Of a DNA stretch of 34,240 bases, positions 2,804-34,240 are shown piece after piece. The notes below the pieces were generated by a model. It was not told the DNA's origin. It saw nothing but the letters and a program-made list of their open reading frames with translations, and made no database searches. Source of the stretch: a virus; IMG/VR virus record IMGVR_UViG_3300031951_000667, positions 1 through 34,240 of that record; one strand, given 5' to 3'. The stretch's first letter is position 1. Every line of letters starts with the position of its first letter. The translations under genes and the position numbers were made by a program.

Positions 2804-2814
2804 AAAGAAAGATT

Positions 2815-16900: not shown

Positions 16901-18585
16901 TCAGTAGGATGTTCAACATAACCCGTAATTGTAATTGACTCTCCCTTCTTATGATCTTTACCAATAAAGGCAGTATCAAAATTCCAACTAGGAAATTGTT
17001 CTTTTAAATTTTTATACCAAGATTGTGCTTCAAGATATGGTAAAACTTCTTTTTTAAAAGTTTCAGAATTTTTTCTGCTCCTAGCTTTACTTAATGGTAA
17101 GCCTCTTTCTTCAATCCATTTAAGGAACTGAGCTGCATTTTTCTCACTGTTAAATTGCTCAAGACTAATAACACCATCAATATCATGCAGATCTTCAGAT
17201 ATAGCTCTTACAACTCTACCATACTTTCTTAATACTAATGAGCCACTAAGAAAGTATTCAAATGGAGAATTAAATAATTTTTCTACAATCCCTTTAGCAA
17301 ATGGGTCTCTATTTAAACTTTGATTATAATACTTTTGCTCAAACTCTTCTCCCTTGCTTGAAAAGAACTTACCATTTGAATCCTCATAGTAACTTCTAAT
17401 AAACTTCTCATAGTTCTTTTTATAAACATCATCAACAATATCTAAGACAGTGTCTCTTAGTTCAGCTTCCTTGTATATAGTTATAGCTTTATTGTCCTTA
17501 ATATTTGCTTGCCACCAGTTCCATAGTTTATTGAACATTCTAATAATCCAATTTTCAGCATATTTATCTTTGTAGCCTAAACTTTCAAAGTATTCTTTGC
17601 TTATATCAGGATTTTTTCTTTTACTACCATCATATCCATTTTCAACACCAACAACTAACATACCGGCAATAAACTCAATAATTACTTGCCTGTGTGCATA
17701 TGGGTTAAATCTAGCTGGGTCATATTTGTAGATTTCTCTAACTGTTTCTGCAGCCATATCTCTCTCACCATATGGTGTAACTTCTTCCGCAGTTTGTTCA
17801 TCTTCTACTTCAAGCCTTCTTGTATTGTATTTATTGTACAATTCATCATATCTGCTCCAGCTATTTATACCTTTCCAAAGCTCTAAACCAAGTTTAGATT
17901 TTTTACCAAGAAATTGAAATATAACATTTGCAGACTGCATAGCTAATGTCTTGTCTGATACATTTCTTTTAAGTGCCATATACTTTTGAAGTATATCAAA
18001 TGCAGCTAAAGGATCCTCTTTTGTTCTTCTTACACCATTCTCATCAATCCAAGTTCTTCTATCTGAACTTATTATTTCATCAAGATCCTGATCAATTTTA
18101 ATGTTTAATCCTTCCATGAAAGAAATAAGACTAGTTCTTAGTCTATTACTAAACTCCCTATTTAAAGATGAATTATTAAAGTTATCCCTCATAAACATAG
18201 GGTTTAAACTTTCATCATCCTCAAAGTTTGATACAGGTTCTTTTAGAATATCAAAGTCTTTAGTCTCTTCTTTTATTTCTTGTTGGATTCTAACATCATC
18301 AAGTATTTGGAATAACTCATCATTTGGTTGAGCATAAAGTGTAACATTTATGTCATCCCTATAGAATCTAGATGAATATGGATATCTTGTTTGAACCTCA
18401 TATGGTTCATTGAAGAAAGAATCATTTTCTTCAAGTTTTAGATTTGGATACTTGAGCTGTATAAATCTGGTAAATTCTTCATTAAATTTATTAAATTCAA
18501 TTGGATCCAATATATCATTGAATTCACCAAGTATACCTCTCTTTTTTAAATCTTCTAAAACTGTTGACCTAGATTCACAAAACAT
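10963..18585 (-). CDS. Giant virion-type protein: NTase-like region, zincin motif, LysM, C-terminal hydrophobic segments
   Basis: The protein has 2540 residues counted from ATG at 18585. I prefer this to the TTG at 18594 because it forms a TAATG junction with the upstream stop. In order: a GS (448-449) followed by Asp468-Ile-Asp470 and a later Asp591 resembles a nucleotidyltransferase fold; HELSH (744-748) with FMEETLAYALQ near 807-817 resembles a zincin site and its third ligand; a long helical, coiled-coil-prone middle; a LysM repeat at about 2212-2257 (GQTLEEIAQMYGVTVEEL within it); and a C-terminal region with hydrophobic stretches near 2375-2391 and 2422-2450. Giant proteins beside the RNA polymerase gene in crAss-like phages are virion components delivered with DNA. 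LysM and the hydrophobic stretches fit passage through the cell envelope. Overall function is inference. Confidence 0.8.
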   Translation of the reverse strand: MFCESRSTVLEDLKKRGILGEFNDILDPIEFNKFNEEFTRFIQLKYPNLKLEENDSFFNEPYEVQTRYPYSSRFYRDDINVTLYAQPNDELFQILDDVRIQQEIKEETKDFDILKEPVSNFEDDESLNPMFMRDNFNNSSLNREFSNRLRTSLISFMEGLNIKIDQDLDEIISSDRRTWIDENGVRRTKEDPLAAFDILQKYMALKRNVSDKTLAMQSANVIFQFLGKKSKLGLELWKGINSWSRYDELYNKYNTRRLEVEDEQTAEEVTPYGERDMAAETVREIYKYDPARFNPYAHRQVIIEFIAGMLVVGVENGYDGSKRKNPDISKEYFESLGYKDKYAENWIIRMFNKLWNWWQANIKDNKAITIYKEAELRDTVLDIVDDVYKKNYEKFIRSYYEDSNGKFFSSKGEEFEQKYYNQSLNRDPFAKGIVEKLFNSPFEYFLSGSLVLRKYGRVVRAISEDLHDIDGVISLEQFNSEKNAAQFLKWIEERGLPLSKARSRKNSETFKKEVLPYLEAQSWYKNLKEQFPSWNFDTAFIGKDHKKGESITITGYVEHPTETETVQDGLASYGGKIVPNMVTRPKRYVLDFFLRTQEGNYPEIFDQYYKDWKQIFEAKINMGRGKDLTDLIYFQPFFEDKYKFTNRGFRYFTFADDHFTNMPDKSDLTVDEGKINNERAKEAADALGQKIAESLGVQYMYVTEQEARQILESRKKKYNGEPAFFFGGAVYIVGDNVNFDTVLHELSHPLLRAIYRENKTLFTNLYNSLMATTEGQIIRDHVIKNYPELPEYTIDANGERQLNPLFMEETLAYALQRKAANQVTNQIESEGFESFIGKLLSVLKDLLKKIFGSKVKVADINVNTKIDKLAEMLLTDTFEYNVEAIKNEDIVAFAREIKDMANRLVKDVKADKIQESINDLFATNQLIYEKAINFKTRSPLYQKMLKEALFVKGTKELLPRIKRSLAGFQTITNYEDLSVDEIIKNTVEAERARTQDLTNRARSFINSVAVVNNISQNIFSDLNRMQKTKEFNSRDAVALLFLYRSSIRSWNDMFNTFDEFLIEQDDFDVTQPNELTDLINETKNNLLRADKKIRDIYQENSVNFYVEVTGYMNDFLMQELGNNLKNALTNKLSVSEIEELYNGVIKQSFTDQDLDELYAKYEKKGIESKYIKKFIDDYKEFLLNQDTITDGLSGKLKDVSWFNRFFESYTSSNDPIVGGLAIFINDQITEANNRALEKSYQFRKKLQPLLEKIGYSTLKTRQLVDLLMFKDKILYVDPKTKKPVEKEILTFLNEFGNGWRYVQDLLEYKIDEAWSSEDQEKIRTAVDEYRAFKRDYMHDEYIQEVYQKDSVFDKYGDIGKMAWLARKMALDAYNNESNELTDELERFQKYSTLQSLWQDYKNLYSLKYADGSDKVDDPINGIYDLTITRILLEHRESTGDYYEFIPRAGSLQTAFNEFLSLKDQEGATPEEIEEAKKEWVKQNLRVAYTEDFYNSRKDLITKLKALQSKVNTVIEEDFDISNAYSEIYNLMYAYKDEQGQPIPEELGVDKLKTIKELNQKIIDYKAKFDTKTGLSRDESEELDLYIAISKKDPAKLTPEQKLRYRTLLEKQAKTGLSVGEVALMQSIYADLSSLTQKIPTEYYVDALNEHLQRLNVAPINVEDATNFINSDEMKALLEKDGKLVDWFRVNHVSRKVKNRKTRKIEVKYERTMANSLSVPKNPEYYEKTVLLNELTGEEETFNGLPNARHSIYRIKDKYRTGYNPQTGEVELQVGVHIDNKGQYLPRLFTNVNDPNSAKDDRYINKDYMRLKDQPNSVRFQLLEVMKEAHLSFQEDKSNKSKLYLDMPRYVLRDNLSRLQAGKLGERYSQIKKGIGQSIRDAWGKSVDEVELEHNYERDNNLQEYRLVNTDLNSEEVSYIPVTGLYNLDIDNTDPDVVRGMFKYLLSLEQQSQLLQTLPLVNSILDTLEDPANAPKTPNTYSKTINRIKGKLTHTVKPGATNNRAGQVRSLIEREYYGKQYSGEGSSVYLDKFIGKLQKLSSRASLAVNLPSDLKNRYGQIVQNIIESAGGGFITVKDLGKGKLWATPAMLEWVAKSVYTKGVPALSSQIIEMFDAAFKFEDDFGRSVSRNMSKDLMNGEWMYNIRKNAEMEAALQLFGAFLNAEKVEQRLSNGKTITINYKDAWQLNKDTGIAELKPGVDPAWYNRTVYHEYVKGQTLEEIAQMYGVTVEELQQRNKVVSAIEFEEGKEIIIAKSEKFKQFRNKFQGVSHRLYGSYDKFAQAEGNMYLPYRMFTFMRKWFIPMLTNRWGAAVEIEDGKFWKPKMKKRYDWMTGKTTMGFYVNAYLGMKELIKSKGKYWAYMPLDQKRDLMRTLSEGLFIITAALLASMLWGYDPDDKKRFDKLRARSGALFTDDFKTWGFIQNHMLLLLLGVQAETSAFVPLPTIAGVNLGADDYIKMVTTTTSAFGNTISLYAKIFEDVFQLITFNDKAYYSRKEGEYFWQQEGSPKVIGHLLKSVGINGNTGQVDKALEGFESAGKLK

Positions 18586-21500
18586 TACATACAATTTAAT
18601 GGGTTATTCTCTCCTTCAAATTTAGCTAATATTTCTGCATCTGTTACAGGTTGATATTTGGCTACCTCTGAACTTACTTCTTTTGCAAACTCCGATCCTG
18701 GGTTAAGATATTGGAATTCTTCAAAAAGTCTTCTACTTAAATATACAAATAATTCTTTTGGCATCAAAGCAGGATCTCCATATCCATTAATAGAAAATGC
18801 AACTTTACCTCCTTTTTCTATTACTTGATTGATTTCTGCAATAGCAAGTTCTATATCAGCTATCCTATTATCATAGTACTTTTTATCTAGAGTAGAGAAA
18901 GCATCGGATACCTTATCTAAACCAGTTACTATACCTACAGAAGAACTATTAGCTATTTTTTTAAGTAGCACTTGCCCTTTAAGCTTTCTTTTATTAAACT
19001 CTTCAGGTGTCATTTTTTCATATGCTTCTTTTTGTGCTAAGCTTAATTGATAGATAAATGTAATGTCTTGATTATTATCAACTATATACTGGTATGCTTT
19101 TTCACTTCCAGAAAGATCATTGTATACAAATACATTAGCACTAATAGTTGGTATAAGATTTTTTCTTTCTACCAGCCTTTCTGCATTTTCTATGTCTTCA
19201 GCTGTTATTGTTTCTGAATCTGGAATTTTTGAAAGTACATACTGTGTATCTATAGATTTCTGAACATCTAGTCCTGTCAAATAATTTTTAAATCTATACT
19301 TGTCTCTATTTGTTTTACTGTTAACTTGTTCAAACTTATTTTTAAAATCAACAAGCATTTTAAGTTTTACAGGAGATTCTAAGAACTTAGCAGTCTCATC
19401 ATTCATTACATCAATAAACTTATCAAAGTCAGTTAAGCTTAGGAAGTTGTATTTACTTTTATTAGTACCTGATTGCAGCATTGCAATGTATGTAATCTTT
19501 GCAAAGAAGTCACTAATTCTATCATTCTCATCTTTATCTTCAACCTTTTTTACAGCCCTATTTGAAAGCTCTTCAAAATTTCTTGAATATAAATTAGACT
19601 TAAATGATGTCATGTCTTTATCATCTATATAAAGATTAAACATTGTCTTAGATTGATTAGTATCTATTACTATTCTAGATAGTACAGGATAATTATCAAA
19701 AAGCTCAGTTCTGTATTGAGTCTTAAGCCTTTCTAATCTAACAGCATATGCATTTTCTTTATCATTAAATAAATGATATGGATTCAATGTGTTATCTAAA
19801 GCTCTACTTGCTATAATTTTTTCATAAGTGTATCTTCTATTTTCTGTTTCCACACCTCTTACACTAGTCTTTTTTACATTTTCAAGTTCTTTTTTAAACT
19901 CTTGTGTTTTTACAACTTCATCAAAAGGCATAACATGTCTTAGATACTCTCTTTCTACAACAAATCTGATATATTCTTCTTTGTTAGAAGCTACATTACT
20001 TCCAAAATGACCTGGCTCAAGAGCATATAATCCTCTATCCTCATAACTATTTTTAGCTTCACTTCCTCTTAGATAAGACTTGTCAAAGAATTCTTTTTCA
20101 ATTTGAACTCTATCAACCACCATAGTTGGCCCACCAGCTGTATCTACAACCCGTGCACCAAACTTAAGTCCTGCAGCAGGTGTAATTTTAATATTGTCAC
20201 TTAGGGCATAAGAGCTATATTCTTTTCCAAGACTATATTTTCTTAGTGTATTTTGGAACAAATAACTTAAAATATCATTTCTAAATACAACTGGGAATAT
20301 ATCACGATAGTTATATCCAAATGCAGCTTTTAAAATTTCTGCATTTTTAAAATCAGAAACATAAGATTGTATATAATCTTGTATGTCTTCATCATATCTA
20401 AACTTGAATAATGGTTTTGCTAAACCTTTAACAAGTTTTGAATTAAAGAAAGAACTAATAATTGAATCATTAATCATTCCTAACCTTAGATCTTGATCTA
20501 TTTTAGTATTTAGTGCTAAAGCCTCAATATTAGATTCAGCTTGAATAGCTTGTCCTACATCAGTGTTAAGAGCTGTATCAGGATTAGAAGCCATCTTTAA
20601 TGCTGTGATTCCTTCAATTTGTTTTTCTATAGTAAGATAATGCAAGAACATTGTTCTTGATAAGTCACTACTAGCTTTTTCAGGATTATTTTTACTTTCT
20701 GTGATTAGATTAAGCATTTCTTCTTTAGTGAAATGTTTGTTATCTTCACTTCTGTTTTTAAAATATTCATCCATCATATTCTTACCAACAGTATATCTTA
20801 CTTGGTCATCTGCAAGAAAGTTCTTAAAGTTTTTAGATATAACATTGCTGGCTGCTTTGAAAGATACTCCTAAATATCCTGGGTCTCTTCTTAATGGTTC
20901 TGCAAATGTACTTTGTGCAAGTCTCTTTTCTTTTACATAGTCCCTAACAAGTGGTTGTGATACAAAGTAAACTGCTTCTTCTACTGGTACTCCTGTCTTA
21001 AGTAAGTAAAGTAGTATAGGTGCAACTTCATAGTTACCCTGCACAAAGAATATCCAAGCATCTTTTTCAACATCCACCCAACCGTTTATTAATTGGGATA
21101 TAACATCAGCTATTTTATTTACACCATCAACATCATACTGATTAGACAATGATATAACATCTTGTCCATTCTTTTTTGTTGTGTGATGTCTTAAACCTAA
21201 GAATGATATTCTATTCATTTCTTCATCACTGTGTTTATACACAGGAGGCATTGTTGCTCCTAATGAATTAAATATAACATTGAATGTATTTTCAATAGCA
21301 CCAAGTCCTAATGTCTTCTTACCAACAACATTTGATTCATGTTTGTATAAGTTATAACCTACTTCAAAGATTCTTGTTGGACTAATAACTTCTTTTTGCT
21401 TACCACTTTTATCTGGAGCTGAAAGATTTGGTACAAGGTTTCCATCTTTATCTTTAGTCATCATATTTTGTAATGGACTATAATCCATTACTGATTGTGC

Positions 21501-24500
21501 TAATCTATCTGCTATAGGTTTAACAAGATAAGTTCCGTTAGGAGTTGTAAGAGATACAAAATTTTCTGGTAATTCAAGAATACTTCTTATGTCATTGATC
21601 AGTGCATTCTCAAGACCAGCCTTTTGCATAGCATACATCTGCTGCTTAGTCATATCATATTTTGCTGGATCTTTGAGTGCATTATAGAATTCCTCTGCAT
21701 TTTCAAACATTGTCTGTTTAACATTGCCATCAGAATCAATGTTATTCATGAATATAGATAACTTATCAATATCAAAGTCAGCTCCTGATTTAGCAACTAT
21801 TTCTGCTGGAGGAATGATAATATTACCAGCTTCTGCTGGAAGGAAGTGATATACTTCCATAAATTCCATAGAGTTCAAACCCTGTACTGGAATCCTAACT
21901 CCAACCATAGTTATTGCTTTTCTGTTATTTTTATCATTTGCATCTAACCATTCATCATCTTTGATAGCTTCATTAAGTCTATCAATAGTTCCTATTGGTT
22001 CACCTTTGTATTCTAGATTTAATAAACTCTCATAATCACCTTGAAGAGATATGGCAACTTTCATTGCTGTAGTTTTACCATCAGCTCCTCTATGATATGT
22101 AGGTAAAAAGTTAGAGCCCATATATTTTTTAACTGCAGTTTCCCGTGCAGCAGGACTCATCTTATCTAAATCAATTGGCAACTCAAATAAACCATCATAG
22201 AAAGCAGATGATTTCTGTACTAATGGTTCTCCCTTAACTTTTTGTTTAATTATTCTTTTATTGATCAATGACAATAAAAGTTTTTCAATCTTCACAGCCT
22301 CTGGGTGTAGAGATAAGTCAAATCTTAAATCTCCCTCATCAGTTACATCAATGATGTCTATTAGATTGTCACTATATACATCATCTCTTGTAAGAGTATC
22401 CCGAATCATTTTTGCAAGCTTTGCAATACTGTCTTTATTTACTGGAATAAATTCTCCACTTTCAGTTTCTTCAAACCCTAGTTCATCAACTAATTCATTT
22501 TTAAGTAACTCAGTATACTCAGATACCCTGTTTACATAGTTTTCAATTAGCTTAGTATGTTTTTTTATGGTTATTTGACCATTTTCATACATTCCTTCTA
22601 ATACTAACTTTCTTAACTGAGTTGAGAATATTGATTTTTGTTTATACTTTGAGTTTACTTCAGTTTGATTTTTAAGGTATTCTGCAAAAATTACATTCTT
22701 GGTTAATGTAACTGAGGTATCTATATTTCCATTTTTGTCCACAATGTTATCACCTGAACCAAAATGTCCTACCTTTTCACCAGATTCCATTAATACATAA
22801 TCAATACCTTGTTTCATCATCATGTCATGAATCTGACCCAATCTAGTATTGGCAGTATGCACTGTAGGAATCAATGGAGCTAATGAAAATTTATGAAAAG
22901 ATGTTAATGGTAATCCAGAAACTTTAATGTTACCATAGTACTGTAATTTATATGGTGGAAAGTATTCTCTAATTTCAGAAGCTGTAATTGTTTCATTATT
23001 TACAATTCTTTTATATAAGTTTTCCTGTTGAGTAGTCCAGTTACCTTCTAGATTTTTTAACATCTTATATGCTTCAAATCCTATCCAACCTTGACCATCA
23101 GCAATTTTCATATCACTGTAGTCTTTAAGAACTATTGTTGCAAGTTCTTTTGCAAGTCTTTCTGCTTCAGCTTTAGATTTACCAGCTTTTAAATACCTTT
23201 GTGTATAATCTTTAACGTGAGCATCATAGTATTCTGACTTATATTTAGATTCCCCTATCTCTTCTTCTTTTATAATAGCTGTGTTAAGTGTACCATCATA
23301 TGGTCTAAATTCATAATTATATTTTTCAGCATAAAGTCTTTCATACATAGGGCTGTTGATATACATCCTTGCTCTATAATCTGCACGGAATCCTCTACCA
23401 CCAGAACCTAAACCAGCATTTCTCTTATGGAACTCTTCTTTGTCATGGTTATACTGTACTGTATCTCCATATGCCAAAATGGTTGTTTCAAAGTTATGTA
23501 TCCAATAGTTATAGGTGTATGCTTTAACTAGCATTTTATCTACTTGATCTTTACTAAGTTCTTCAGAAGATACCATATCATATAAACTTTGGTCTATATA
23601 TCTAGCATCTTCTAATCTACTGTAGTTTTGTTGTGTTTGAGCATTAAAATATTGAATGACATCATTTTTAATTTTTCTTCTTAATTCAGGATTCTCATTA
23701 ACAATATCTTTAAGATTAAAATCTTCAGGATTAAAATAACCAGTCTCTAATGCATCTTCCATAGTTTTATCTATCAATGCATATAGATCACCTTGTACTT
23801 CAGCAGATAAGACATCATCAAATGCTGTAAATGCTTCACCGGCTTTTACAGTTTGACCATTATCTTTTCTTACTACATTTCTATTATAGGCTGAAAATTT
23901 TCCAAAGTATTCTTTATTTGATTTGAATCTGTAAATCCTACCAGCTTCTGCTGCAATGTAACCAAGTAACACATTAAATGCTTCTGACTCTCCTAGATTA
24001 TTATTTGCTGTAGTATTACTTGGACTAAATGCCATGATATCTACATAAAGATTGGTGAGTTTTTTGCTTGAATAAGTATTTACTTTCTTAGCTCTTAAGT
24101 TCATTGCTGTTTGCTTAGAAGCATGTCTCATGAACTCCACAACACCTGATTGTAGCATTGTATGCATTTCCTGTAAGAACTTACTTGTTACATCTGTATT
24201 TGCAGTTGATGTTCCAGTAGTTTCATTATTCTCTCTATCAATAATTTGAGTACCTCCAATATTTTCTAATAACAATTCAGCACCTGGAAACTTTTCACCA
24301 TAGTTTGGTGACATTGGATTTAAATCAAAAATAGAATTTAATACTACAGAAAATGCTGAAGAAGGATTATTCTCTTCAGACAACCATCTCATGTGTTGGA
24401 ATCTACCATTTGGATCAGCTTCTTTCATAGTAAGCTGTTGCCAAGAAGAAGCTTTATTTATTGAAGTTACAATTCTTGTTACTGTATTATCTAAGAACTG

Positions 24501-27500
24501 TTCCCATACTCTATTCTTTTCAGGAGTTAATACACTGTAGTTTGAGTATCCATCTGAAAATCTATTTTGTAATTGTGCAAGTGTTGTAATTTTAGATCTA
24601 ACATCTCTTGCTTTTCCTCCAGCAGCATCAACTATTGCTTTTGGCATTTCATTCATCAAATAATATAGAGGCTGTCTTTTAAAATCCTCTGCTGCAGCCA
24701 TTAGTCCAATATCATTGGACTTACTAGCTAAGTATACTAATCTTACATTATCATATATAAAATCAATATTGTATCTAGAAGCAAATGGTTTTTCTTTATT
24801 TCTAACAACATTTCTAATATCAGCACTTGTCATATCTAATTGGATACCAAGAGCTGCAAGAAACTCACCTGCTTTGTTAGGATTAAGCTTTTTGTCTAAT
24901 GTAAATTCTTTAATAACCTCATTAACATTTAAGTAATTGTTTCCACCATCCTTTTCAATAAATCTGTTGGTAACAGAATCAGCAACATTAAAGTTTGTTG
25001 TCCAATCATTAATGATTCTATAAATATCAAAGTTAGCTGCAGCAAGTCTAGCTTCATAGATTGATTTCTCTGGTATTCTTTTACCATCAATTTGTTTAGC
25101 TTTCTCTATAACAGTTTTATTTATATTTAATTGAATAAATGGAATAACCGGCTTCTTAAGATCTTGCCAGAAATTAGTTTCTGATTTAAACTCTGTGTTA
25201 TTATTATAAGCTAAAGGTCCAAATTGATATGGGTTTGGTAATATTTCAAGAACTTGAATAAACTCAGGATAATTTTCAATTGAGTTTTTCATTCTATCAT
25301 ACATATCAAGAAAATCCATAGAGCCCTGTAAAGTTCTTGCTAATCTAGCCCACATTACATCTACTGGTTCTAGCATTGGAAGACCAAAGTCATCTGTTTT
25401 TACAGAGTAGGTTTTAACTCCATTTTCATTTTCTTCAATTAAATAATCCCCATTCTCATCTCTATTAAGTTGGTAGATTCCAGAAAGCATCATCATTGTA
25501 TCATCAGTTGCTAACTGTTTAGCAGAAATAGAATTACCTTCTTCTGTTTTAAATAAAGCTACTGTAGCATCTTCTGTATCATCATTATAGGCATCTTTCA
25601 AAATATTAAATCTTGATCTTTGCATGTGAAATGCAACTACACCTTTATCTGTTTTTTTACTTAATGCCTCATCAACAACACCATAATTTTCCACTGCTTT
25701 CATCAAAAGATCAAGCTTTGCCATCTCTTTTTGTTCAGCTACAAAATCAGGATTTTTATTTGTGGGGTCTGCATTTGCAATAGCAATACTTTGTGCAACT
25801 TCTATTTGATTATCAAGTAAAACATTTAACTGTTTTTCTATATTACTATAAAGTTTTTGTCTATTAGTTATATCACTTAAAAGTCTTACTGCTCCACTTG
25901 TTGTACCGTATGTAGTATTATATTTATAGAAGGTTCTAGCCATTAATGAATCCATAAGATCCACAATCTTATTAGACTGAACATCAGTAATTTCAGTAAA
26001 GTCTTTGCCAGTACTTGTGATTGGTTGTATTGTTTTCTTTGCACTATTCAATCTTTGAAAACCAGGCATTAAGTTATGCTCAGCATTTTCAGTATCAACT
26101 GTAAAGTTTCCGGTATAAAGATTATTATAATATTCTTTTACCATTGGTATATCATACAATCTTGTTACATCTCTCTTAGTTGTTTTACCAAAGAAGAAAT
26201 CAATAATCTTTTTGATTTTATTAAATATGGTCTGAATAATACCAGATTGTTTTTTACCATTTACAGCATAGTCAATAAAGTCTTCAGCTAAATCTTCTTC
26301 AATTTCTATAAATTCTTTATTGGCCCATTTATCAAATGTTCTAATATGGTTATATAATGCTGTCTTTTCTTCTATTGTTAGAACCAACTGAGAGAATGCA
26401 TGCCATGCTTCGTGATATAAAGTAATTGGTTGGGCATCTCCATATAGTTCTATTCTTGCTGCAAATCCTTCTTCTCTAAGTTTATTTGCTGCATCAGATA
26501 AAAGAGATCCTGCAGAAAGAAATGTACCATATGCTGAAGAGTTAAATACAAGAGCCAGTCTTTCAACATCTACAACACCTTTTAAAGGGGACTTATCAAA
26601 CCATGCATTTACATCTTCCCAAGCTCTAGCACTTCCATAGAGTTGATTCATAACAGAAGCAGCTCTTTTATTTCTATCCATACCTGGAAGATCAGGTATT
26701 AAATCAGTACCATTTAGTAAATCATCTATAGAAATTTTATTAATTTTTCTATCTTGAACTTTTTGTTGCTCTACTGTTTTAGCTGGTATAGTTGGTTTAG
26801 CAGGGACAACAGTTGATGTATCCACTGGTTGAGTAACTTTATTTGCAGCTTTCTTATAAGTTTTAGTTGACTTGCTAAGAAATCTAGATAGAAAATCTGC
26901 TTTAGTATTCTTAGTTGATTTTGAACCTGAAGCTAAATATGGAGCTTGAGTTCTTAATGCATAACCTGTAAATGCTCTAATCTTAACTGGTATACCTAAT
27001 TTTTTTGCTGCTTTGATTGAAGCTTCAGCAATACCGGTTTGACCATTACTAATGATCTTAGATATTGGATAATCCTTTACAACCTCTTTTAAGATATTAT
27101 AAATATACTTATCTATTTCTGCTTGAGTGTAACCATCTTTAGCAAGCTGTGCAATATCATTACCAACAATATTTACAACATTACCTTTCATTTTAGAAAG
27201 GTTACTTACCATTAAATCAATAGCATTTTGTGGAGGAATTAAATTTTTTGGAGCTTCACTTTTAGAACCAATTTTTAATCCATACCATTTGTTTACTGCA
27301 CCAGCTCTTTGTTGTACTAATTTTTCATCAGGAGTAGTAAACTTTGTTCCTAATCCAAATACTACATCTGCTTCATTTATATTTGCTACAAGAGTTTTAT
27401 CATTTGGAAGAGTAGATTGTTTAGTTTCTATTGTAAACTTTACTCCTTCTTCTTCCTCTTCTTCAACTTCTTCTTTTTTAACTTCATCTTGAGTACCATT

Positions 27501-29402
27501 ATCTACATCATCAGAAGTTAAATTACTTTCTTTTGGTATACCTATATCAATCTGTTCATCCATTGGAGTTTCTAAATCTATAGGGACAGCAAATTCTAAA
27601 TAAGCATTGACTCCAGCAAAATAACCAACATCACCTATTGTATAATCTACTTTAGCAAGAGGCTTAATAAAACCAAAATAATCTTTTTGTACTTCTTTTA
27701 TTATTTCTATGCCATCTTTATTTTGATTGATTTCATAGTCAGTAAATCTTACACCTTTTTGTATTGCACCATCCTCTGCAAATGATTTCATGTAACTCAT
27801 ACTAGCAGGATAACTAATTTGAGTTCCATCATTTTTAGTTATAACTTTTACTTTTTTAAGATGATTGCTAATTATACTTGCCGCATCATCTTTTTCTAAA
27901 TCAACAACAGTTGATTCTCCAGTTAATGGATCTTTTATAGTTACAGAAAGTTGATTAACACCTAATACTTCATTTATTTCAACATTAATATTATTTGTCT
28001 CAACTCTATTAGATAAAAAAGTATTGTAGTATTCCAGCTTTGCTTGTGGACTTAATGGTTCTCCATTTAATAATCCTTTAGTTGCTAGTATTTTACCTAG
28101 GTTGTCTGCAAGAGATTCTGGCATGTCCATTTTTTGCAAATAAATTTGACTATTAACAGCAACACCAGCACTGAATTTGTTTACCATGAAAAAACTATAA
28201 CCCTCTTTTACACCAGAGTCATAAGTATAGATCATAGACAAATCATCAGCAAAATTTGTATTAGATATTAATTCAGATTTACGTTCTACAATACCAAAGC
28301 TTCCACCTGTAATAGGTAATAAGACAGGTTCAGTACTTGTACTAAGTCTATCATTTAGCCTTAGTAGATCATTCATTTTTTGTTTTTGTGTATTCTTTAT
28401 TTTATTTAGGATATCTTGTCTCTCTTGTTCACCATACAAGTTACCTTCTGCAATACCTTCTTTAATTTCTCTTGCAGCTAATGTCTCAGCAGGTATTAAT
28501 GTATATAAGAAACCAGATCTATTTCCTAAATATAATTTGCCACCTTGATTAACAACTGGTCTAATGTACTGGTATACAATTCTACCACCTGTTTCTACAA
28601 TATTACTATTCTCATCAAATCTAATTGGATTACCTTTTGCATCAGAGATGATGGCAATATTAATATCATAAGTTCTATTCTTACTTAAGAAAGTCTTATC
28701 ATAGTTAGTTAAATCATCAGGATTCAAATCTCTAATGTTCTGAGCTCTAAGCATGATTGCTTTGTCCCCTAACATTACATTATCATTTATATCCTTTTTC
28801 TTAGCTTGTACTACTGCAGTTTTAACTACTTCAAAAAATAATTTTTTATCCTGGTCTTCTTGATTTCTTTCCTCCTCCGTCATCTTATCAGGATTTTTTG
28901 CAATAGCAACATTATCAGATGTTTTATCTGGATAATCTACTTTTGCTTTTTCCTGCACAGCTGACCAATTTGGTTGTGCATTATTATCATTATTTTGTAC
29001 TACATTCTTAGAAGTCTTATTGCTCTCTTTAATTTTTTTATCAACGTCTTTCTTTGTTTTTGTAGTAGTTTTTGGAGTAACAAACTTTAATACATTTTTA
29101 GGATCTTCAAATTCCAATGATAAGTCTTGTAAATAGTCAAAACTTAAACCAGCATCTTGTCTTAAATACTTTTTAATTTCAAGATCATTCTTAACTAAAT
29201 CTAATATATCAGGAACAGCTTGTGCATAAAGAAGACCATTTGGTTCATCTTTAAATTCTTCATAGATCTCTCTAATGAATTTATCTAATGCTTTATTATC
29301 AAATTTACCTAGTTTAGGATCATTCATCCTATCAAGTATTTCTCCACGGACTATTGTATATAAAGCACTTATATCATTTTCAGTATAGAGTTGACAAGCC
29401 AT
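18585..29402 (-). CDS. Giant virion RNA polymerase (crAss-like/YonO type) with SLOG-like and zincin regions
   Basis: The protein has 3605 residues. The catalytic motif DFDID lies at 2542-2546 within AKSGADFDIDKLSIFMNN, preceded by VRIPVQGLNSMEF. This is the DxDxD metal-binding loop of single-chain double-psi-barrel RNA polymerases, as in YonO and Cellulophaga phage phi14:2 gp66. A conserved-looking ISQLINGWVDVEKDAW segment follows about 200 residues later. N-terminal to the core lie a lysine/asparagine-rich linker, a Glu-rich run (about 643-656), a SLOG-like Rossmann region (about 675-815, NGQTG at 786-790), a Pro/Thr linker and a zincin motif HEAWH (997-1001) with a possible third ligand in EEDLAEDF. 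It probably transcribes early phage genes after injection. It starts 2 nt after the upstream stop. The roles of the SLOG and zincin parts are unknown. Confidence 0.88.
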   Translation of the reverse strand: MACQLYTENDISALYTIVRGEILDRMNDPKLGKFDNKALDKFIREIYEEFKDEPNGLLYAQAVPDILDLVKNDLEIKKYLRQDAGLSFDYLQDLSLEFEDPKNVLKFVTPKTTTKTKKDVDKKIKESNKTSKNVVQNNDNNAQPNWSAVQEKAKVDYPDKTSDNVAIAKNPDKMTEEERNQEDQDKKLFFEVVKTAVVQAKKKDINDNVMLGDKAIMLRAQNIRDLNPDDLTNYDKTFLSKNRTYDINIAIISDAKGNPIRFDENSNIVETGGRIVYQYIRPVVNQGGKLYLGNRSGFLYTLIPAETLAAREIKEGIAEGNLYGEQERQDILNKIKNTQKQKMNDLLRLNDRLSTSTEPVLLPITGGSFGIVERKSELISNTNFADDLSMIYTYDSGVKEGYSFFMVNKFSAGVAVNSQIYLQKMDMPESLADNLGKILATKGLLNGEPLSPQAKLEYYNTFLSNRVETNNINVEINEVLGVNQLSVTIKDPLTGESTVVDLEKDDAASIISNHLKKVKVITKNDGTQISYPASMSYMKSFAEDGAIQKGVRFTDYEINQNKDGIEIIKEVQKDYFGFIKPLAKVDYTIGDVGYFAGVNAYLEFAVPIDLETPMDEQIDIGIPKESNLTSDDVDNGTQDEVKKEEVEEEEEEGVKFTIETKQSTLPNDKTLVANINEADVVFGLGTKFTTPDEKLVQQRAGAVNKWYGLKIGSKSEAPKNLIPPQNAIDLMVSNLSKMKGNVVNIVGNDIAQLAKDGYTQAEIDKYIYNILKEVVKDYPISKIISNGQTGIAEASIKAAKKLGIPVKIRAFTGYALRTQAPYLASGSKSTKNTKADFLSRFLSKSTKTYKKAANKVTQPVDTSTVVPAKPTIPAKTVEQQKVQDRKINKISIDDLLNGTDLIPDLPGMDRNKRAASVMNQLYGSARAWEDVNAWFDKSPLKGVVDVERLALVFNSSAYGTFLSAGSLLSDAANKLREEGFAARIELYGDAQPITLYHEAWHAFSQLVLTIEEKTALYNHIRTFDKWANKEFIEIEEDLAEDFIDYAVNGKKQSGIIQTIFNKIKKIIDFFFGKTTKRDVTRLYDIPMVKEYYNNLYTGNFTVDTENAEHNLMPGFQRLNSAKKTIQPITSTGKDFTEITDVQSNKIVDLMDSLMARTFYKYNTTYGTTSGAVRLLSDITNRQKLYSNIEKQLNVLLDNQIEVAQSIAIANADPTNKNPDFVAEQKEMAKLDLLMKAVENYGVVDEALSKKTDKGVVAFHMQRSRFNILKDAYNDDTEDATVALFKTEEGNSISAKQLATDDTMMMLSGIYQLNRDENGDYLIEENENGVKTYSVKTDDFGLPMLEPVDVMWARLARTLQGSMDFLDMYDRMKNSIENYPEFIQVLEILPNPYQFGPLAYNNNTEFKSETNFWQDLKKPVIPFIQLNINKTVIEKAKQIDGKRIPEKSIYEARLAAANFDIYRIINDWTTNFNVADSVTNRFIEKDGGNNYLNVNEVIKEFTLDKKLNPNKAGEFLAALGIQLDMTSADIRNVVRNKEKPFASRYNIDFIYDNVRLVYLASKSNDIGLMAAAEDFKRQPLYYLMNEMPKAIVDAAGGKARDVRSKITTLAQLQNRFSDGYSNYSVLTPEKNRVWEQFLDNTVTRIVTSINKASSWQQLTMKEADPNGRFQHMRWLSEENNPSSAFSVVLNSIFDLNPMSPNYGEKFPGAELLLENIGGTQIIDRENNETTGTSTANTDVTSKFLQEMHTMLQSGVVEFMRHASKQTAMNLRAKKVNTYSSKKLTNLYVDIMAFSPSNTTANNNLGESEAFNVLLGYIAAEAGRIYRFKSNKEYFGKFSAYNRNVVRKDNGQTVKAGEAFTAFDDVLSAEVQGDLYALIDKTMEDALETGYFNPEDFNLKDIVNENPELRRKIKNDVIQYFNAQTQQNYSRLEDARYIDQSLYDMVSSEELSKDQVDKMLVKAYTYNYWIHNFETTILAYGDTVQYNHDKEEFHKRNAGLGSGGRGFRADYRARMYINSPMYERLYAEKYNYEFRPYDGTLNTAIIKEEEIGESKYKSEYYDAHVKDYTQRYLKAGKSKAEAERLAKELATIVLKDYSDMKIADGQGWIGFEAYKMLKNLEGNWTTQQENLYKRIVNNETITASEIREYFPPYKLQYYGNIKVSGLPLTSFHKFSLAPLIPTVHTANTRLGQIHDMMMKQGIDYVLMESGEKVGHFGSGDNIVDKNGNIDTSVTLTKNVIFAEYLKNQTEVNSKYKQKSIFSTQLRKLVLEGMYENGQITIKKHTKLIENYVNRVSEYTELLKNELVDELGFEETESGEFIPVNKDSIAKLAKMIRDTLTRDDVYSDNLIDIIDVTDEGDLRFDLSLHPEAVKIEKLLLSLINKRIIKQKVKGEPLVQKSSAFYDGLFELPIDLDKMSPAARETAVKKYMGSNFLPTYHRGADGKTTAMKVAISLQGDYESLLNLEYKGEPIGTIDRLNEAIKDDEWLDANDKNNRKAITMVGVRIPVQGLNSMEFMEVYHFLPAEAGNIIIPPAEIVAKSGADFDIDKLSIFMNNIDSDGNVKQTMFENAEEFYNALKDPAKYDMTKQQMYAMQKAGLENALINDIRSILELPENFVSLTTPNGTYLVKPIADRLAQSVMDYSPLQNMMTKDKDGNLVPNLSAPDKSGKQKEVISPTRIFEVGYNLYKHESNVVGKKTLGLGAIENTFNVIFNSLGATMPPVYKHSDEEMNRISFLGLRHHTTKKNGQDVISLSNQYDVDGVNKIADVISQLINGWVDVEKDAWIFFVQGNYEVAPILLYLLKTGVPVEEAVYFVSQPLVRDYVKEKRLAQSTFAEPLRRDPGYLGVSFKAASNVISKNFKNFLADDQVRYTVGKNMMDEYFKNRSEDNKHFTKEEMLNLITESKNNPEKASSDLSRTMFLHYLTIEKQIEGITALKMASNPDTALNTDVGQAIQAESNIEALALNTKIDQDLRLGMINDSIISSFFNSKLVKGLAKPLFKFRYDEDIQDYIQSYVSDFKNAEILKAAFGYNYRDIFPVVFRNDILSYLFQNTLRKYSLGKEYSSYALSDNIKITPAAGLKFGARVVDTAGGPTMVVDRVQIEKEFFDKSYLRGSEAKNSYEDRGLYALEPGHFGSNVASNKEEYIRFVVEREYLRHVMPFDEVVKTQEFKKELENVKKTSVRGVETENRRYTYEKIIASRALDNTLNPYHLFNDKENAYAVRLERLKTQYRTELFDNYPVLSRIVIDTNQSKTMFNLYIDDKDMTSFKSNLYSRNFEELSNRAVKKVEDKDENDRISDFFAKITYIAMLQSGTNKSKYNFLSLTDFDKFIDVMNDETAKFLESPVKLKMLVDFKNKFEQVNSKTNRDKYRFKNYLTGLDVQKSIDTQYVLSKIPDSETITAEDIENAERLVERKNLIPTISANVFVYNDLSGSEKAYQYIVDNNQDITFIYQLSLAQKEAYEKMTPEEFNKRKLKGQVLLKKIANSSSVGIVTGLDKVSDAFSTLDKKYYDNRIADIELAIAEINQVIEKGGKVAFSINGYGDPALMPKELFVYLSRRLFEEFQYLNPGSEFAKEVSSEVAKYQPVTDAEILAKFEGENNPLNCM

Positions 29403-29404
29403 TT

Positions 29405-32400
29405 CTATTTTGGTTTACAATTATTAATATTATCATCTTTACTCTTATTCTTCAATGCGGCAAGTCTATCTTTTTTAGACATGCTGGCTGCATTTTGTTT
29501 TGCCTTTTCAATTAGTTCAGGATTGTCAGCAAAATCTTTAAGACTGCTTTTTGAAATTTCAGAGTTTTCTTTTTCTTCTGGTGTAGGTTCCATAATTTCT
29601 TCTTCTACTTTTAATGCTTCTTCAGTAGTTTTAGTAAACCCTGCTTTTATCTGAGTTTCAGTAAATGTTTTTTTCTTAGGTTTTCCATTTTTTACATTTT
29701 CAACCTGATTGATTACAATCTTACCGTCACCTTTAGATTTAACAACAACTACCTCATTTTCTGTAATTCCAAAGATAGGTTTTTTGCTAATAAGATAGTC
29801 ACCTTCAGCAATGTTTTCCTCAGATGTGCTTAGCTTTAATGAATTCTTTCTAATCTGGTATACATTTTCTACAAGGTCTGCAAACTGTATATCTGTTTCT
29901 GCTGTAATAGCAACTATGGCATCAGTATAAGCTGTTTCTAAATCTTCAAGTTTCTCAGCAGATTTGATTCTGTCAAGTATATTTTTGAATTCTTCAGAAG
30001 TTAATGATACAAGTTCTGGGAATACATTATCTACAAAGTTTCTTTTTAATGCATCAAGTTCATCTTCAATTGGATCTTTTGTTGGTGTTGATGCCTTTTT
30101 TAAAGCAGCTAGTTGTCTATCAAATTCAGCATTGATTTTATCAAAATCATCTTTAGATTTTCTGTATACATTTTTTAAATCTTTTATTTTTAACTCAAGT
30201 TTTTCTAAATCCTTAAAAGGTTTGATATCTCGAACAGGGACAGCTCCTAAAAAATCTAATTTATCATATACCCTACTTTTAGCTTTATTAAAAAACCAAT
30301 CATCACTTTCTGTTTTTCCTTTTTCAAAATTTTCTGTTAATTCTGGACTTTGATATAACCTACTATTTCTTTCAGAATCTGCAATTTGTTTAAACCTATT
30401 ATTATACTCTTTTTCTAATTCTTCAATTTTATCAAATCCTTCTTTAATTTCATTTTTTATTTCTTCTATTGAAAATGGTGTAGTATCAAATATTGTTTTA
30501 AATCTTTTTTCTAATTCTTTTAGTCTTCTTTTTTCTATATCAGCTTCCTCAGCTTTTATATCTTTAGGTGCTTTTTCAAGTTTTGCCAACTCAGTTTCTA
30601 ACTGTTTTTTCTTAGCAAGTAGTTGTTCATATTGAGGAGAAGTAGCTACCATATCACCAACAGAGATCATACCTCCATTAGGAATATCAGCTAACTTTTT
30701 ATTTACTTCAGCTATTTTCTTTTTTAGTTTTTTAACTTCAGTTGACTTTTGTTCTTCTGTAAGTTGTGGCTCCTTTGTTTCTTGTCCAACATTTTCTGGT
30801 TTAAGATTGTCAGGAAGATTAGGAAGCTTCATTACCACACCATACTCAGCTAGTTTTGCATCATCAATTGGTTCTAAAGGAACTGTTTTTGCACGTTCTA
30901 ATTCTTCTACTTTATTTTCTAATTCTTTTATTTTATTAGCATCTGGCTTGCTTGATTTTTCTATTGATAGTATAGTATTTTTTAAATCTCTAATAACTGG
31001 ACCATTAACAACTTTAGCTGCTGACTCTGCAGAAAGAATATTACCATCCATATCTGTAGTAATTGATATAGGAAGAATAGAAATACTTTTTGCTAACTCA
31101 CCTGTCATATTATATAAGAGAGCTCTATAGATAGACTGTTGTATTCTATATGTAAGTTTTTTATTGAACTTACTGTCATCATTAAAGTTGGTCCAGTTTT
31201 CTGGTTTACCAGTTTTAATATCAATAATTTTAAGATCTCCCGTCTCAGTATCAAATGCTACTAAGTCCATTGCACCTACTAAACCTGAGTCAAGTAAAGT
31301 AGGATCATATATTATTACATCATCAGATAAGATTTTATATTTACCATCTATTACTGAGTCTTGTAATTCAGTTATAATACCATACTCCCCAAACAAATTG
31401 TCATAAGCTTGTTGTGACATCTTAGCTGGCTTTTCTGGTTTTATAAATCCTCCATCTTTATCAGTTCTAAATGCAACTCTAGTCATGTTGTCTATTGTGT
31501 TTCCAGCAATAGTTGATTCATCATTAGCAACATCTTTTACAACTGCAATTAATGTAGCTTCAGTAAAATTATTAGTTAAAGCATTTCTAATAATGTCAAG
31601 CTTTCTTTGACTTTTTAACTGAGCAAGTTTACCATCTTTTACAGTATATTCAAGAAATGACATGAATCTATTAAGTCTTTCAGCATCTGATTCTATGTCA
31701 GTATCATTTACAAGATCTCTAAATGGTATTAGCAATTGACCACCTTTTTGGACTTTGCCTTCCATATAAGGTTCCTTAATTGCTTCATACAAATAAGGAT
31801 CTTTATTGGTCATTTTATTTTCTATCTCTTCAGTAAGTTTAGTAACCCTCATAGGTTTACCATCTACACCTGGAAACTCATAACCAACTGTATTGCCTTC
31901 AGCATCTAGAATTCTTGAGACACCGTTTTGTTTATTTTTTACCATCTCTTCAAAAATTCTGAAGACACGGTTTGTATTATCTTTTGGTTTATATATTGAT
32001 CTTAGATAAGTTAAATATTTTTGTAATTCAGAAATATCATTTTTAATAGCATTTCTATCATTATTAGTAAGAGTATCACCATTATCATACTTGTTTCTAT
32101 CATACATGCTCTGCAGCTTATCTCTCATAACTCTTAATTGAGTAAGCCCATATTCTGTAATTGATTTAGTAAGTGGTAGATACTTTATTTTAGGTAAAGC
32201 TGATTCTTCATCAATTGGTCTTTCATTGTATGCCTTAATAATATCTTTTTGTTCTGGTCTTTCAAGCCAGTTGTTTCTTATTAATTCATATCTAGTTGGG
32301 TCAATTCTTCTGAAGTCTGCAGGTTTTCCTAAACCTTCTGGAGCAGGAGCTACAAGATAAGCATCAAATGCAACTTCAAGTTCATTTCTTAAATCATCTG

Positions 32401-34240
32401 GTAAATCATTCCAAGTTGCATTTAAGTCAACCTCTTGTCTAGATTCTTTTTTAGGAGCTTGTGTTGTAACAGGTTTTGTTTGTGCCGGAGCTTCTGTTAA
32501 TTGACCTTTTAATTTATTAATGAAAGCATTATATCTTTCATTTGTCTTTTTTACTTGCTCTTGATAATCTTTCCATGCATCAGTTGTTTCAATAGGTGGA
32601 ACAGCTTCTTGTTGTAAGTCTTCAGTTTCCTGTTCTATTTTAGCTTGTGCAATTTTATCTAATAATATTTGTTGCAAACCAAACTTAACTAAGGTTGCTC
32701 TTTGTCTATCTTCTACAGATGCACCAGATTTTTTAGTTGATTTAAAGAATTTACTACTTTCTTCTGGATTATTTTGTATTGCAAGCTCAGCTAATTCTGT
32801 AAAATTCTCAGGCACAATATTTTGTTGTGCCATTGTTTCATATAAGTCAAATAATGATGATACATCATTTGCATCTTCAACTAATTTTAAAACAGAATTA
32901 AGATCTTTAATACCATCTTCAATTTCTTTTTTACTTCTAGGTGCAGGTGGTATTTCTTTTTGCATCCAGGCTTCTTTATTTTCACCTGTTGTTGCTAATA
33001 AGTTTTCTTCAAACTGTACTTCAAGTTTTTCAAGTTGTCTATCTTTTCTTTCTTGTAGTTGTGAAATTCTAAGTTGTAGCTCTGCATTTTTTGCAGTCTC
33101 AGTTACAACTCCTTCTATTTCTTTTAGTGTTTGGTATCTCTCCAGTGTTTCCATATATCTGTCATATGCCAAACTACCTTCAGGAACTACTAAACCTTTT
33201 CTTTCATCATAGAATTCTTTTGGTGGAATACCTTGATCTCTCCATAGAAGGAAGTCATTTCCCTCCATAAATATTCCTCGGTTTGCTAAAAAATTTAACA
33301 AACCATTATCTTCAATTTGTGATAACTCTTGTGTAGCTATCTCTCTATAGTAATCTCCTTTTTTAAGCCAGAGATCTGTCATCCATTTTTCATTACGGTA
33401 GTAAACATCTAAGAAACCTTTTGGGTCATTCATTAGATTAATTATATCTACCATTTCTCTAGACTCATCATTAAGTTTATAAAAGTCTAGAACTAACTCA
33501 AATGAGTCATCTATATTTTCTGTAAAGAGATAATCATCTGGTTTTCCAGAAATTGTTTTTAATAAATTCTTATACTGGTCTTCTAGATTTTCAAGTATTT
33601 TAGTTTCTATCTCTTCATTTTTTGGTCCAAATCTATCTTCTAAGTATTGTTCTACTTCTTGATCTGTAACTTCTTCTCCTTCTTCTTTATCTTGTTGTAA
33701 GATTGATTTAGCTCTATTAAAATATCTATCTCTATGATAGTACTCACTAAACTCTTGGTATGCTTCAGAATATTTTTCTAGAGCTTCTGCTTCTTTTAAT
33801 TTGTCCTTAGCCATTTGTTTTGACTCAGGATCACCCACAGCAATAAGATTATTAGCTTCATTTTTTAATAGTCCAATCTCATTTCTCATTTCTTCTGGGC
33901 GAAGAATAATATCAGATTGTCTTTTAGTCATAGATTGTAATGGTCTTTTCTCATAAAACTTGTTCATGATTCCAACCATTCTTTTTCTTACATCATCAAA
34001 AACTTCATTATAGAAAACAGCAGATTTAATACCATAATTCCAAGTATGATGCATTATATATGCTTGTTCATAGTCTTCACTATCTTTAGGTATTTTGTTG
34101 AGATCAATTGGATTAGGATATACTTTATTATAGAAGTCCATTCTTTTTTGTATATCTCTTGCTTGAGTTACTAAATCACTAATTCTTGCTTTGTATTTAT
34201 TAATATCTTCTCCAGCTAATTTTGGAAAAGCTTCTTTAAA
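29405..34240 (-). CDS. Giant cluster protein with PD-(D/E)XK nuclease-like domain, N-terminus beyond the window
   Basis: The frame runs open from the right edge to TAG at 29405-29407, giving at least 1611 residues. The ATG at 34141 is probably internal: the 33 codons before it are open, coding-like (FKEAFPKLAGEDINKYKARI at the edge) and contain no ATG. Numbered from that Met, GLVGAMDLVAFD (Asp959) followed by LKIIDIKTGK (Asp974-Ile-Lys976) is a RecB/Cas4-type PD-(D/E)XK site. Coiled-coil stretches lie near 350-375 and 1160-1215. A Pro/Thr-rich linker (TEAPAQTKPVTTQAPKK) separates helical blocks. A strand-rich region near 1440-1500 looks SH3-like, and the C-terminus is Lys-rich. It is the first in-window member of the virion RNA-polymerase cluster. 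The nuclease could process DNA at entry or packaging; this is inference. Confidence 0.8.
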   Translation of the reverse strand, partial: FKEAFPKLAGEDINKYKARISDLVTQARDIQKRMDFYNKVYPNPIDLNKIPKDSEDYEQAYIMHHTWNYGIKSAVFYNEVFDDVRKRMVGIMNKFYEKRPLQSMTKRQSDIILRPEEMRNEIGLLKNEANNLIAVGDPESKQMAKDKLKEAEALEKYSEAYQEFSEYYHRDRYFNRAKSILQQDKEEGEEVTDQEVEQYLEDRFGPKNEEIETKILENLEDQYKNLLKTISGKPDDYLFTENIDDSFELVLDFYKLNDESREMVDIINLMNDPKGFLDVYYRNEKWMTDLWLKKGDYYREIATQELSQIEDNGLLNFLANRGIFMEGNDFLLWRDQGIPPKEFYDERKGLVVPEGSLAYDRYMETLERYQTLKEIEGVVTETAKNAELQLRISQLQERKDRQLEKLEVQFEENLLATTGENKEAWMQKEIPPAPRSKKEIEDGIKDLNSVLKLVEDANDVSSLFDLYETMAQQNIVPENFTELAELAIQNNPEESSKFFKSTKKSGASVEDRQRATLVKFGLQQILLDKIAQAKIEQETEDLQQEAVPPIETTDAWKDYQEQVKKTNERYNAFINKLKGQLTEAPAQTKPVTTQAPKKESRQEVDLNATWNDLPDDLRNELEVAFDAYLVAPAPEGLGKPADFRRIDPTRYELIRNNWLERPEQKDIIKAYNERPIDEESALPKIKYLPLTKSITEYGLTQLRVMRDKLQSMYDRNKYDNGDTLTNNDRNAIKNDISELQKYLTYLRSIYKPKDNTNRVFRIFEEMVKNKQNGVSRILDAEGNTVGYEFPGVDGKPMRVTKLTEEIENKMTNKDPYLYEAIKEPYMEGKVQKGGQLLIPFRDLVNDTDIESDAERLNRFMSFLEYTVKDGKLAQLKSQRKLDIIRNALTNNFTEATLIAVVKDVANDESTIAGNTIDNMTRVAFRTDKDGGFIKPEKPAKMSQQAYDNLFGEYGIITELQDSVIDGKYKILSDDVIIYDPTLLDSGLVGAMDLVAFDTETGDLKIIDIKTGKPENWTNFNDDSKFNKKLTYRIQQSIYRALLYNMTGELAKSISILPISITTDMDGNILSAESAAKVVNGPVIRDLKNTILSIEKSSKPDANKIKELENKVEELERAKTVPLEPIDDAKLAEYGVVMKLPNLPDNLKPENVGQETKEPQLTEEQKSTEVKKLKKKIAEVNKKLADIPNGGMISVGDMVATSPQYEQLLAKKKQLETELAKLEKAPKDIKAEEADIEKRRLKELEKRFKTIFDTTPFSIEEIKNEIKEGFDKIEELEKEYNNRFKQIADSERNSRLYQSPELTENFEKGKTESDDWFFNKAKSRVYDKLDFLGAVPVRDIKPFKDLEKLELKIKDLKNVYRKSKDDFDKINAEFDRQLAALKKASTPTKDPIEDELDALKRNFVDNVFPELVSLTSEEFKNILDRIKSAEKLEDLETAYTDAIVAITAETDIQFADLVENVYQIRKNSLKLSTSEENIAEGDYLISKKPIFGITENEVVVVKSKGDGKIVINQVENVKNGKPKKKTFTETQIKAGFTKTTEEALKVEEEIMEPTPEEKENSEISKSSLKDFADNPELIEKAKQNAASMSKKDRLAALKNKSKDDNINNCKPK

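Follow-up and report, generated by a model that had tools for sequence, protein, structure and literature searches.

A predicted SLOG-type domain with an altered pocket inside a virion-type RNA polymerase of a crAss-like phage

The polymerase polypeptide and its neighbours

The window, that is, the whole stretch of DNA analysed here, is itself a virus record of 34,240 bases (a 34-kb fragment), and its features are collected in Table 1. Residues 2070-2823 of its SLOG-bearing polymerase polypeptide match PDB 6vr4, the virion RNA polymerase of phi14:2, at E 1e-23, and the polypeptide aligns by blastp with gp66 of phi14:2 at 23.5% over 803 columns (E 3.8e-31). The homologous core and the DFDID motif are common to both proteins, so that homology to 6VR4 and a DxDxD motif, by which gp66-type polymerases are recognised, are both found in the window protein. 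The fusion to a phage virion-type RNA polymerase that had been proposed in an earlier note on this DNA is therefore supported. Unlike the window polymerase, gp66 gave no match to the SLOG profile at E<=10. A 1000-aa piece of the window polymerase matched 84 phage records and, among the 50 matches listed, the sources were phi14:2, crAss-like phages by name, or just 'bacteriophage'. By homology to gp66, whose annotation rests on MS/MS, we infer that the window polymerase would be packaged in the virion; the polymerase-associated proteins of phicrAss001 are described as virion cargo in PMC10172136.

Downstream of the SLOG domain, the metallopeptidase-like motif HEAWH serves as a landmark, and it could belong to a self-processing protease of the giant polypeptide. 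The neighbouring metallopeptidase-like segment (residues 875-1375) was used to scan for the polymerase loci compared below, of which the best 80 of 222 were taken. HEAWH, itself the pattern in that search, is common to these 80 loci.

Table 1. Features of the window, with residue numbers of the encoded proteins where given
Feature	Position	Strand	Basis
141-aa protein	49-474	plus	PHROG 447 'NAD synthetase', E 2.1e-23; a homing-endonuclease PHROG also matches
Adjacent genes, VWA-like/metallopeptidase protein and ATPase	1619-3984	plus	DUF2201, PF09967, E 4.9e-17; PHROG 1297, E 9.5e-33
2543-aa neighbour	10963-18594	minus	LysM near C-terminus (PF01476, residues 2217-2243, E 1.1e-4)
Virion-type crAss-like RNA polymerase polypeptide, SLOG-bearing, 3605 aa	18585..29402	minus	6vr4 and gp66 matches
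DFDID, polymerase catalytic motif, residues 2542-2546	21765..21779	minus	sequence motif
HEAWH, metallopeptidase-like motif, residues 997-1001	26400..26414	minus	sequence
Segment missing from domain-less homologues, residues ~623-850	26853..27536	minus	alignment, cleanest case L110
SLOG-type domain as modelled, residues 652-841	26880..27449	minus	AlphaFold2, pLDDT 91.5, pTM 0.88
PHROG 10774 match, residues 673-818	26949..27386	minus	E 1.6e-13
ISNGQTGIAEASIKAAKKLGIP, loop and helix, residues 784-805	26988..27053	minus	sequence, alignment
NVVNIVGNDIAQL, strand and loop, residues 741-753	27144..27182	minus	sequence, alignment
VVFGLGTKF, strand following helix 1, residues 680-688	27339..27365	minus	sequence
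1578-aa neighbour	29405-34141	minus	weak PD-(D/E)XK nuclease match, residues 953-1016, E 0.0012, below cut-off

Elsewhere in the window, the 'NAD synthetase' label of the 141-aa protein is probably wrong; the protein has what we take to be the look of a GIY-YIG nuclease. The 2543-aa neighbour also has a HELSH motif. PADLOC returned no match.

Fold and family of the inserted segment

The three motifs that the earlier note had attributed to a SLOG-like region, VVFGLGTKF, NVVNIVGNDIAQL and ISNGQTGIAEASIKAAKKLGIP, were located in the polymerase frame where it had placed them. The segment that holds them matches PHROG 10774, a family annotated as of unknown function, over 146 window residues and profile positions 20-154 of 179, and so over most of the profile. 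A tblastn search with the 190-aa segment 652-841 found 79 phage records (best E 2e-13), and 14 loci of bacterial relatives (L181-L194) were confirmed by genome scan. All six non-crAss phages inspected (FLC9, SYP, 1.121.O, ICP1, QdP_Psa3 and P018-4) carry the domain as a stand-alone gene of ~180 aa. In two of the six the annotation is that of a carrier of molybdenum or of its cofactor, and some records of the family read 'putative molybdenum carrier'.

Members of this phage family such as ICP1 ORF146 and Pseudomonas phage SYP gp196 are homologous to the window copy over their full length and have their elements in the same order, but AGNGIY and GGQTGxD, nearly invariant in the family, are replaced in the window by NIVGNDIA and SNGQTGIA. 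The TPDEK that follows VVFGLGTKF has TAGEK as its family counterpart. NVVNIVGNDIAQL corresponds to NIAGNGIYTL, with the second Gly and the Tyr replaced, and ISNGQTGIAEASIKAAKKLGIP to SGGQTGxDEAG, with the first Gly, the Asp and the last Gly replaced.

All 70 members of a family alignment match PHROG 10774, and 69 of the 70 match cpYpsA (Pfam PF12694) at E<=1 (best 1.2e-16); the window copy alone reaches 13.6 bits against the Pfam cut-off of 26.2. The 70-member profile matches PDB 3IMK, a cpYpsA, at E 2.4e-15 in two stretches, profile 4-87 with chain residues 53-136 and profile 118-153 with chain residues 6-41. Both halves of cpYpsA are thus homologous to the phage family by profile, but they stand in the opposite order, with the GGQTG part first in cpYpsA and not in the phage family. 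Because the two halves of 3IMK match in swapped order, the phage family is a circular permutation relative to cpYpsA, a relationship that we did not find described among the matches listed in a literature search. The window copy further differs from cpYpsA in falling under the Pfam cut-off and in lacking the acid. The strand order of YpsA presumably also differs from that of the window domain. B. subtilis YpsA is a more distant point of comparison within the SLOG superfamily, with a GxD/E-type motif in its second helix according to PMC6459960; GIA replaces this motif in the window.

Structure prediction is consistent with this assignment. AlphaFold2 gave confident models both for the window domain (pLDDT 91.5) and for the same domain of a distant clade member, L106 (pLDDT 96.0, pTM 0.91). 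When the models were realigned to PDB structures, 3IMK came first for the window (Z 8.2, rmsd 2.4, 106 residues) and for L106 (Z 8.4, rmsd 2.9, 106 residues), the next row being at 5.8 in both cases. The realignment covers Foldseek's top 1000, where best Z values of 7-8 are typical even without a clear relative, and for this reason the SLOG family claim is carried by the sequence profile. In a viral structure library the first match was the cr10_1 polymerase, with a TM of 0.79. Foldseek against the PDB listed 50 matches, among them KaiC, the calcium-sensing receptor and SRP but not 3IMK, with TM 0.19-0.40 (query), rmsd 5.3-13.9 and eight matches at E <= 0.001; kinship to KaiC, the receptor or SRP was rejected, and these matches were read as a general Rossmann-like resemblance. 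Weak matches to IntS11_C, Phage_T7_Capsid, dehydrogenase and aminotransferase models (Pfam/NCBIfam) were read as chance, and a PDB-chain search with the single sequence returned designed repeat proteins only.

A Rossmann-type alpha/beta fold and a solved SLOG relative are thus both at hand, and residues ~652-841 are predicted, by profile and model, to be a SLOG-type Rossmann domain of the YpsA/cpYpsA-like kind, as the earlier note had supposed. That the motifs fell by chance into an unrelated, non-SLOG domain is hardly credible: the low cpYpsA score of the window copy alone and the PDB matches to other proteins would fit such a coincidence, but the PHROG match over 146 residues, the match of the family profile to 3IMK, the first place of 3IMK in the realignments and the TM of 0.79 to the cr10_1 domain all argue against it.

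Insertion, selection and pocket residues

The domain is found in 20 of the 80 polymerase loci (best 80 of 222), as 15 distinct sequences. All nine domain-less homologues tested align with the window polymerase on both flanks, over window residues 1 to 607-643 and again from 821-908; the cleanest case is L110, in which 228 window residues have no counterpart between its residues 598 and 602. Aligned in this way, the SLOG domain is a module of ~228 residues inserted in the N-terminal part of the polymerase. An unfiltered clade-profile search for hidden remnants in all ORFs without a domain match gave a best E of 0.21.

We built trees of the polymerases and of the domains; both were computed as 'quick' trees and contain several long branches, and some forks in the 36-row polymerase clade described here are unresolved. 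Among the 66 rows of the polymerase tree, in which identical rows were entered once and L144 and L152 were left out as too short, 16 have the SLOG domain. Fifteen of these fall in one clade of 36 rows, which also includes a 21-row clade without the domain. The sixteenth, L142, lies in a separate clade of 19 rows, the other 18 of which are without it. The tree needs at least three changes, or two if only the starred branches are trusted. In the domain tree (89 rows), the 14 same-site copies, including that of the window, form one clade with an SH-aLRT of 99, and L142 groups beside L041, L049, L062 and L063; in the last three the SLOG domain and the polymerase core share a frame, with SLOG on the C-terminal side. 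The simplest reading of both trees would be one old acquisition followed by loss in the sister clade, the L142 polymerase having recently gained the domain independently at this position.

dN/dS was usable in four of eight pairs, the other four being too similar. For the domain it was 0.186 (L094/L096), 0.082 (L111/L134), 0.134 (L111/L121) and 0.144 (L104/L107), and for the rest of the polymerase, in the same order, 0.127, 0.081, 0.140 and 0.141; the values are rough, as dS was 0.87-1.36 in three of the four pairs. The domain of the window clade is thus under purifying selection, with omega 0.08-0.19 in the four usable pairs, and in the window's own pair the domain value is above that of the rest of the polymerase (0.186 vs 0.127). 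Over five relatives, 37% of the positions of the whole domain are invariant against 50% for the polymerase stretch examined; within the altered loop and its helix, 20 of 24 positions are invariant, a level reached by 9% of polymerase windows. These data bear on the suggestion that the domain is a decaying passenger, an old insertion that is losing its function and on its way out. Its greater variability compared with the polymerase core and the 21-row sister clade without it are in keeping with decay, but the omega values, the confident predicted fold of two distant copies and the invariance of the loop and helix make it very unlikely.

The pocket was judged by sequence, by comparing the 14 copies of the window clade with 74 copies from elsewhere (33 fused and 41 alone, divided at an open frame of 420 aa). 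The 74 come from pattern-seeded scans, with A or D allowed at the Asp site, plus eight named phage loci, and the relatives are the best 80 of 90 from such a scan, so that strongly altered stand-alone copies may have escaped; the neighbouring segment, and not the domain itself, served to find the 14 clade copies. The counts exclude split or partial domains (L058, L073 and L091) as well as exact duplicates.

Elsewhere, the pocket is nearly uniform. The Asn of NA, the Gly and the Glu of AGE, the first Gly of GGQTG and the Asp of QTGxD are each present in all 74 copies, the second Gly of GNG in 73, the Tyr of GIY in 72 and the Gly after DEA in 71. Among the 14 copies of the window clade, by contrast, the second Gly of GNG, the Tyr of GIY, the Asp of QTGxD and the Gly after DEA are found in none, the Gly of AGE and the first Gly of GGQTG in one each, the Glu of AGE in five and the Asn of NA in 11. 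The earlier note was right that the Asp after QTG is replaced, and this turns out to be the main point. Its expectation of a conserved NGQTG loop was borne out only in part: conservation holds, but separately in two groups, since the loop reads G[G/A]Q[T/S]GxD in 74/74 copies elsewhere and lacks the Asp in 14/14 of the window clade. The Asp site holds A in seven clade copies, S in five and E in two; these last, L104 and L107, thereby retain a GxD/E motif. At the aromatic site, where the window reads GNDIAQL, the clade varies between A, V, T, S and N, and no copy is aromatic (0/14). An Arg-Thr motif depends on the alignment: one alignment has it in 74/74 copies elsewhere, with Arg in 0/14 and Thr in 1/14 of the clade, while another gives Lys-Thr in the window, and the nearby relative L097 has Arg; the motif is therefore left out of the list of lost residues. 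L142 has the canonical pocket residues at the same polymerase site as the window copy.

Other parts of the pocket remain. The first Gly of GNG, the second and third Gly of GGQTG and the Ala of DEA are kept in 14/14 clade copies, the Gln of GGQTG in 9/14 and the Asn of GN in 10/14, and the window copy itself retains GQTG, the Glu of AGE, the Asn of GN and the Asn of NA; some nucleotide binding is for this reason possible. By strand-order equivalence, the Tyr of GIY would correspond to the first-loop aromatic position of YpsA. In B. subtilis YpsA, this aromatic and the acid of GxD/E are predicted active-site pocket positions, and filamentation was abolished and foci were poorly formed with G53A and E55Q, as stated in PMC6459960. 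Since the window copy has GIA for GxD/E, no aromatic in the first loop and a score under the Pfam cut-off, it is filed, as far as residues can tell, neither as cpYpsA nor as a functional YpsA-like SLOG; by profile it is a divergent relative of PHROG 10774. The nucleotide sensor or anti-SLOG role that the earlier note had considered finds no support for this copy, in which the acid and the first-loop aromatic are both replaced.

Canonical relatives and the possible role of the window domain

Other crAss-like polymerases carry domains of the same family, likewise inside the polymerase polypeptide. In PhiCrAssBcn2 the SLOG domain lies near the N-terminus (~residues 88-257) and in cr10_1 at the C-terminus (~4244-4424 of 4460), both with a canonical pocket, unlike the window copy in place as in residues. 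Other SLOG domains lie in frames >420 aa in 30 records; a polymerase core was matched in 23 of them, and in 22 of the 23 the SLOG domain shares the open frame with the core, C-terminal in 21 and N-terminal in one (G070). Among 16 SLOG records with short frames, a polymerase core occurs in one, L023, but outside the SLOG frame; the canonical SLOG of this contig, in a frame of 325 aa, is perhaps a domain that was split off or is yet to be fused.

The search for NADAR covered 50 of 62 polymerase loci and 50 of 67 SLOG loci. Nine of the 50 SLOG records have it above the cut-off (7/23 fused, 2/27 others), and in the seven fused records it lies in the SLOG frame, 51-135 bp away, before the SLOG domain in four and after it in three. 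Three of the 50 polymerase records have a NADAR match, one above the cut-off. In the polymerase of cr126_1 (L176:5872-13080), NADAR at residues 62-189 (E 1.7e-13) occupies the N-terminal place of the PhiCrAssBcn2 SLOG domain, polymerase homology starting at residues 198 and 240. The cr130_1 polymerase is named 'DprA-like' in RefSeq, a reading that we rejected, the SLOG profile having no match there at E<=10; Pfam gives NADAR at E 3.8e-7 with 30.9 bits (cut-off 35.1) and DUF7831 with 28.8 bits (cut-off 27). This frame (L179, NC_055901 13777-31182) has 74 TAG codons that are read through, and the NADAR-like and DUF7831 matches lie near its C-terminus. NADAR was found in none of the 14 mid-site SLOG records tested and, in the 34-kb window, neither in P0001-P0003 nor in the other 10 plus-strand proteins scanned, so that the NADAR partner of a SLOG-NADAR ADP-ribose module is missing from the polypeptide and from these proteins of the record. 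Joining of SLOG or NADAR with crAss-like polymerases was not found among the matches listed in a literature search; the word 'crass' is absent from PMC9503650, as are 'Rossmann', 'fused' and 'DprA' from the crAss survey PMC7886860.

Viral SLOGs, often together with Macro or NADAR, are proposed in PMC9503650 to act early in infection by degrading or sensing ADP-ribose signals of the host; the canonical SLOG-NADAR fusions of polymerases fit these ideas. It may be asked whether the window copy is likewise an active counter-defence domain, which degrades or sequesters host ADP-ribose signals and is delivered with the polymerase. The published proposal and the NADAR domains that adjoin canonical polymerase-fused relatives in the same frame in 7/23 fused records speak for this, but the acid, aromatic and glycine positions are replaced in the window copy, and NADAR is missing from P0001-P0003 and from 14/14 mid-site records. 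We consider it unlikely here; the canonical copies fused to polymerases, some of which adjoin NADAR, are more plausible candidates for counter-defence than the window copy.

A somewhat doubtful but better alternative is a sensor with a changed ligand, which would be catalytically dead and bind a different nucleotide or nucleotide-derived signal to tune the polymerase. The GQTG loop is retained, and there is conservation of the altered loop with its helix; in PMC9503650 the inactive proteins of the TIR-DrHyd-SLOG class are described as sensors that bind nucleotides, and the sporadic fusions of SLOG to enzymes of nucleic acids are likewise interpreted as sensors. The variation within the clade, with A, S or E at the acid site and A, V, T, S or N at the aromatic site, is however unlike one new conserved pocket.

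The reading that we prefer, and to which we would give about even chances, is that an old, pocket-altered SLOG domain has been retained in the polymerase without catalytic activity, for structure or for protein contacts. The domain derives from the phage PHROG 10774 family, other copies of which may bind or act on ADP-ribose-type nucleotides. The lineage of the window has lost several pocket residues that are invariant in the family, yet the fold is kept and purifying selection persists. The family chemistry is unlikely in the window copy because the acid, aromatic and glycine positions are lost, and some function has probably been retained, since selection and fold speak for it. The window copy would then no longer perform the family chemistry, and its most likely use in the injected polymerase would be to give structure or to make protein contacts. 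Against this stand the lower invariance of the domain compared with the polymerase, its higher omega in the window's own pair, the partly retained pocket and the Glu at the acid site of two clade copies, and the structural role is one that we infer. Grouped more loosely, the best reading is that of a structural, contact or altered-ligand module.

On a wider scale we propose, tentatively, that a phage counter-defence protein for nucleotide signals was captured by a virion polymerase and stripped of its active site, and that it now acts as a contact or allosteric module or as the receptor of a new ligand, which has persisted throughout a deep clade of phages; the ends of other crAss-like polymerases would meanwhile continue to gain and exchange SLOG and NADAR domains that are intact. 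Canonical and pocket-altered domains occur in the same kind of polymerase and even at the same site (L142 and the window), and these natural matched pairs therefore make chemistry, ligand sensing and structure directly testable against one another. The findings suggest that, as infection begins, giant crAss-like polymerases may bring interchangeable counter-defence domains with them into the host.
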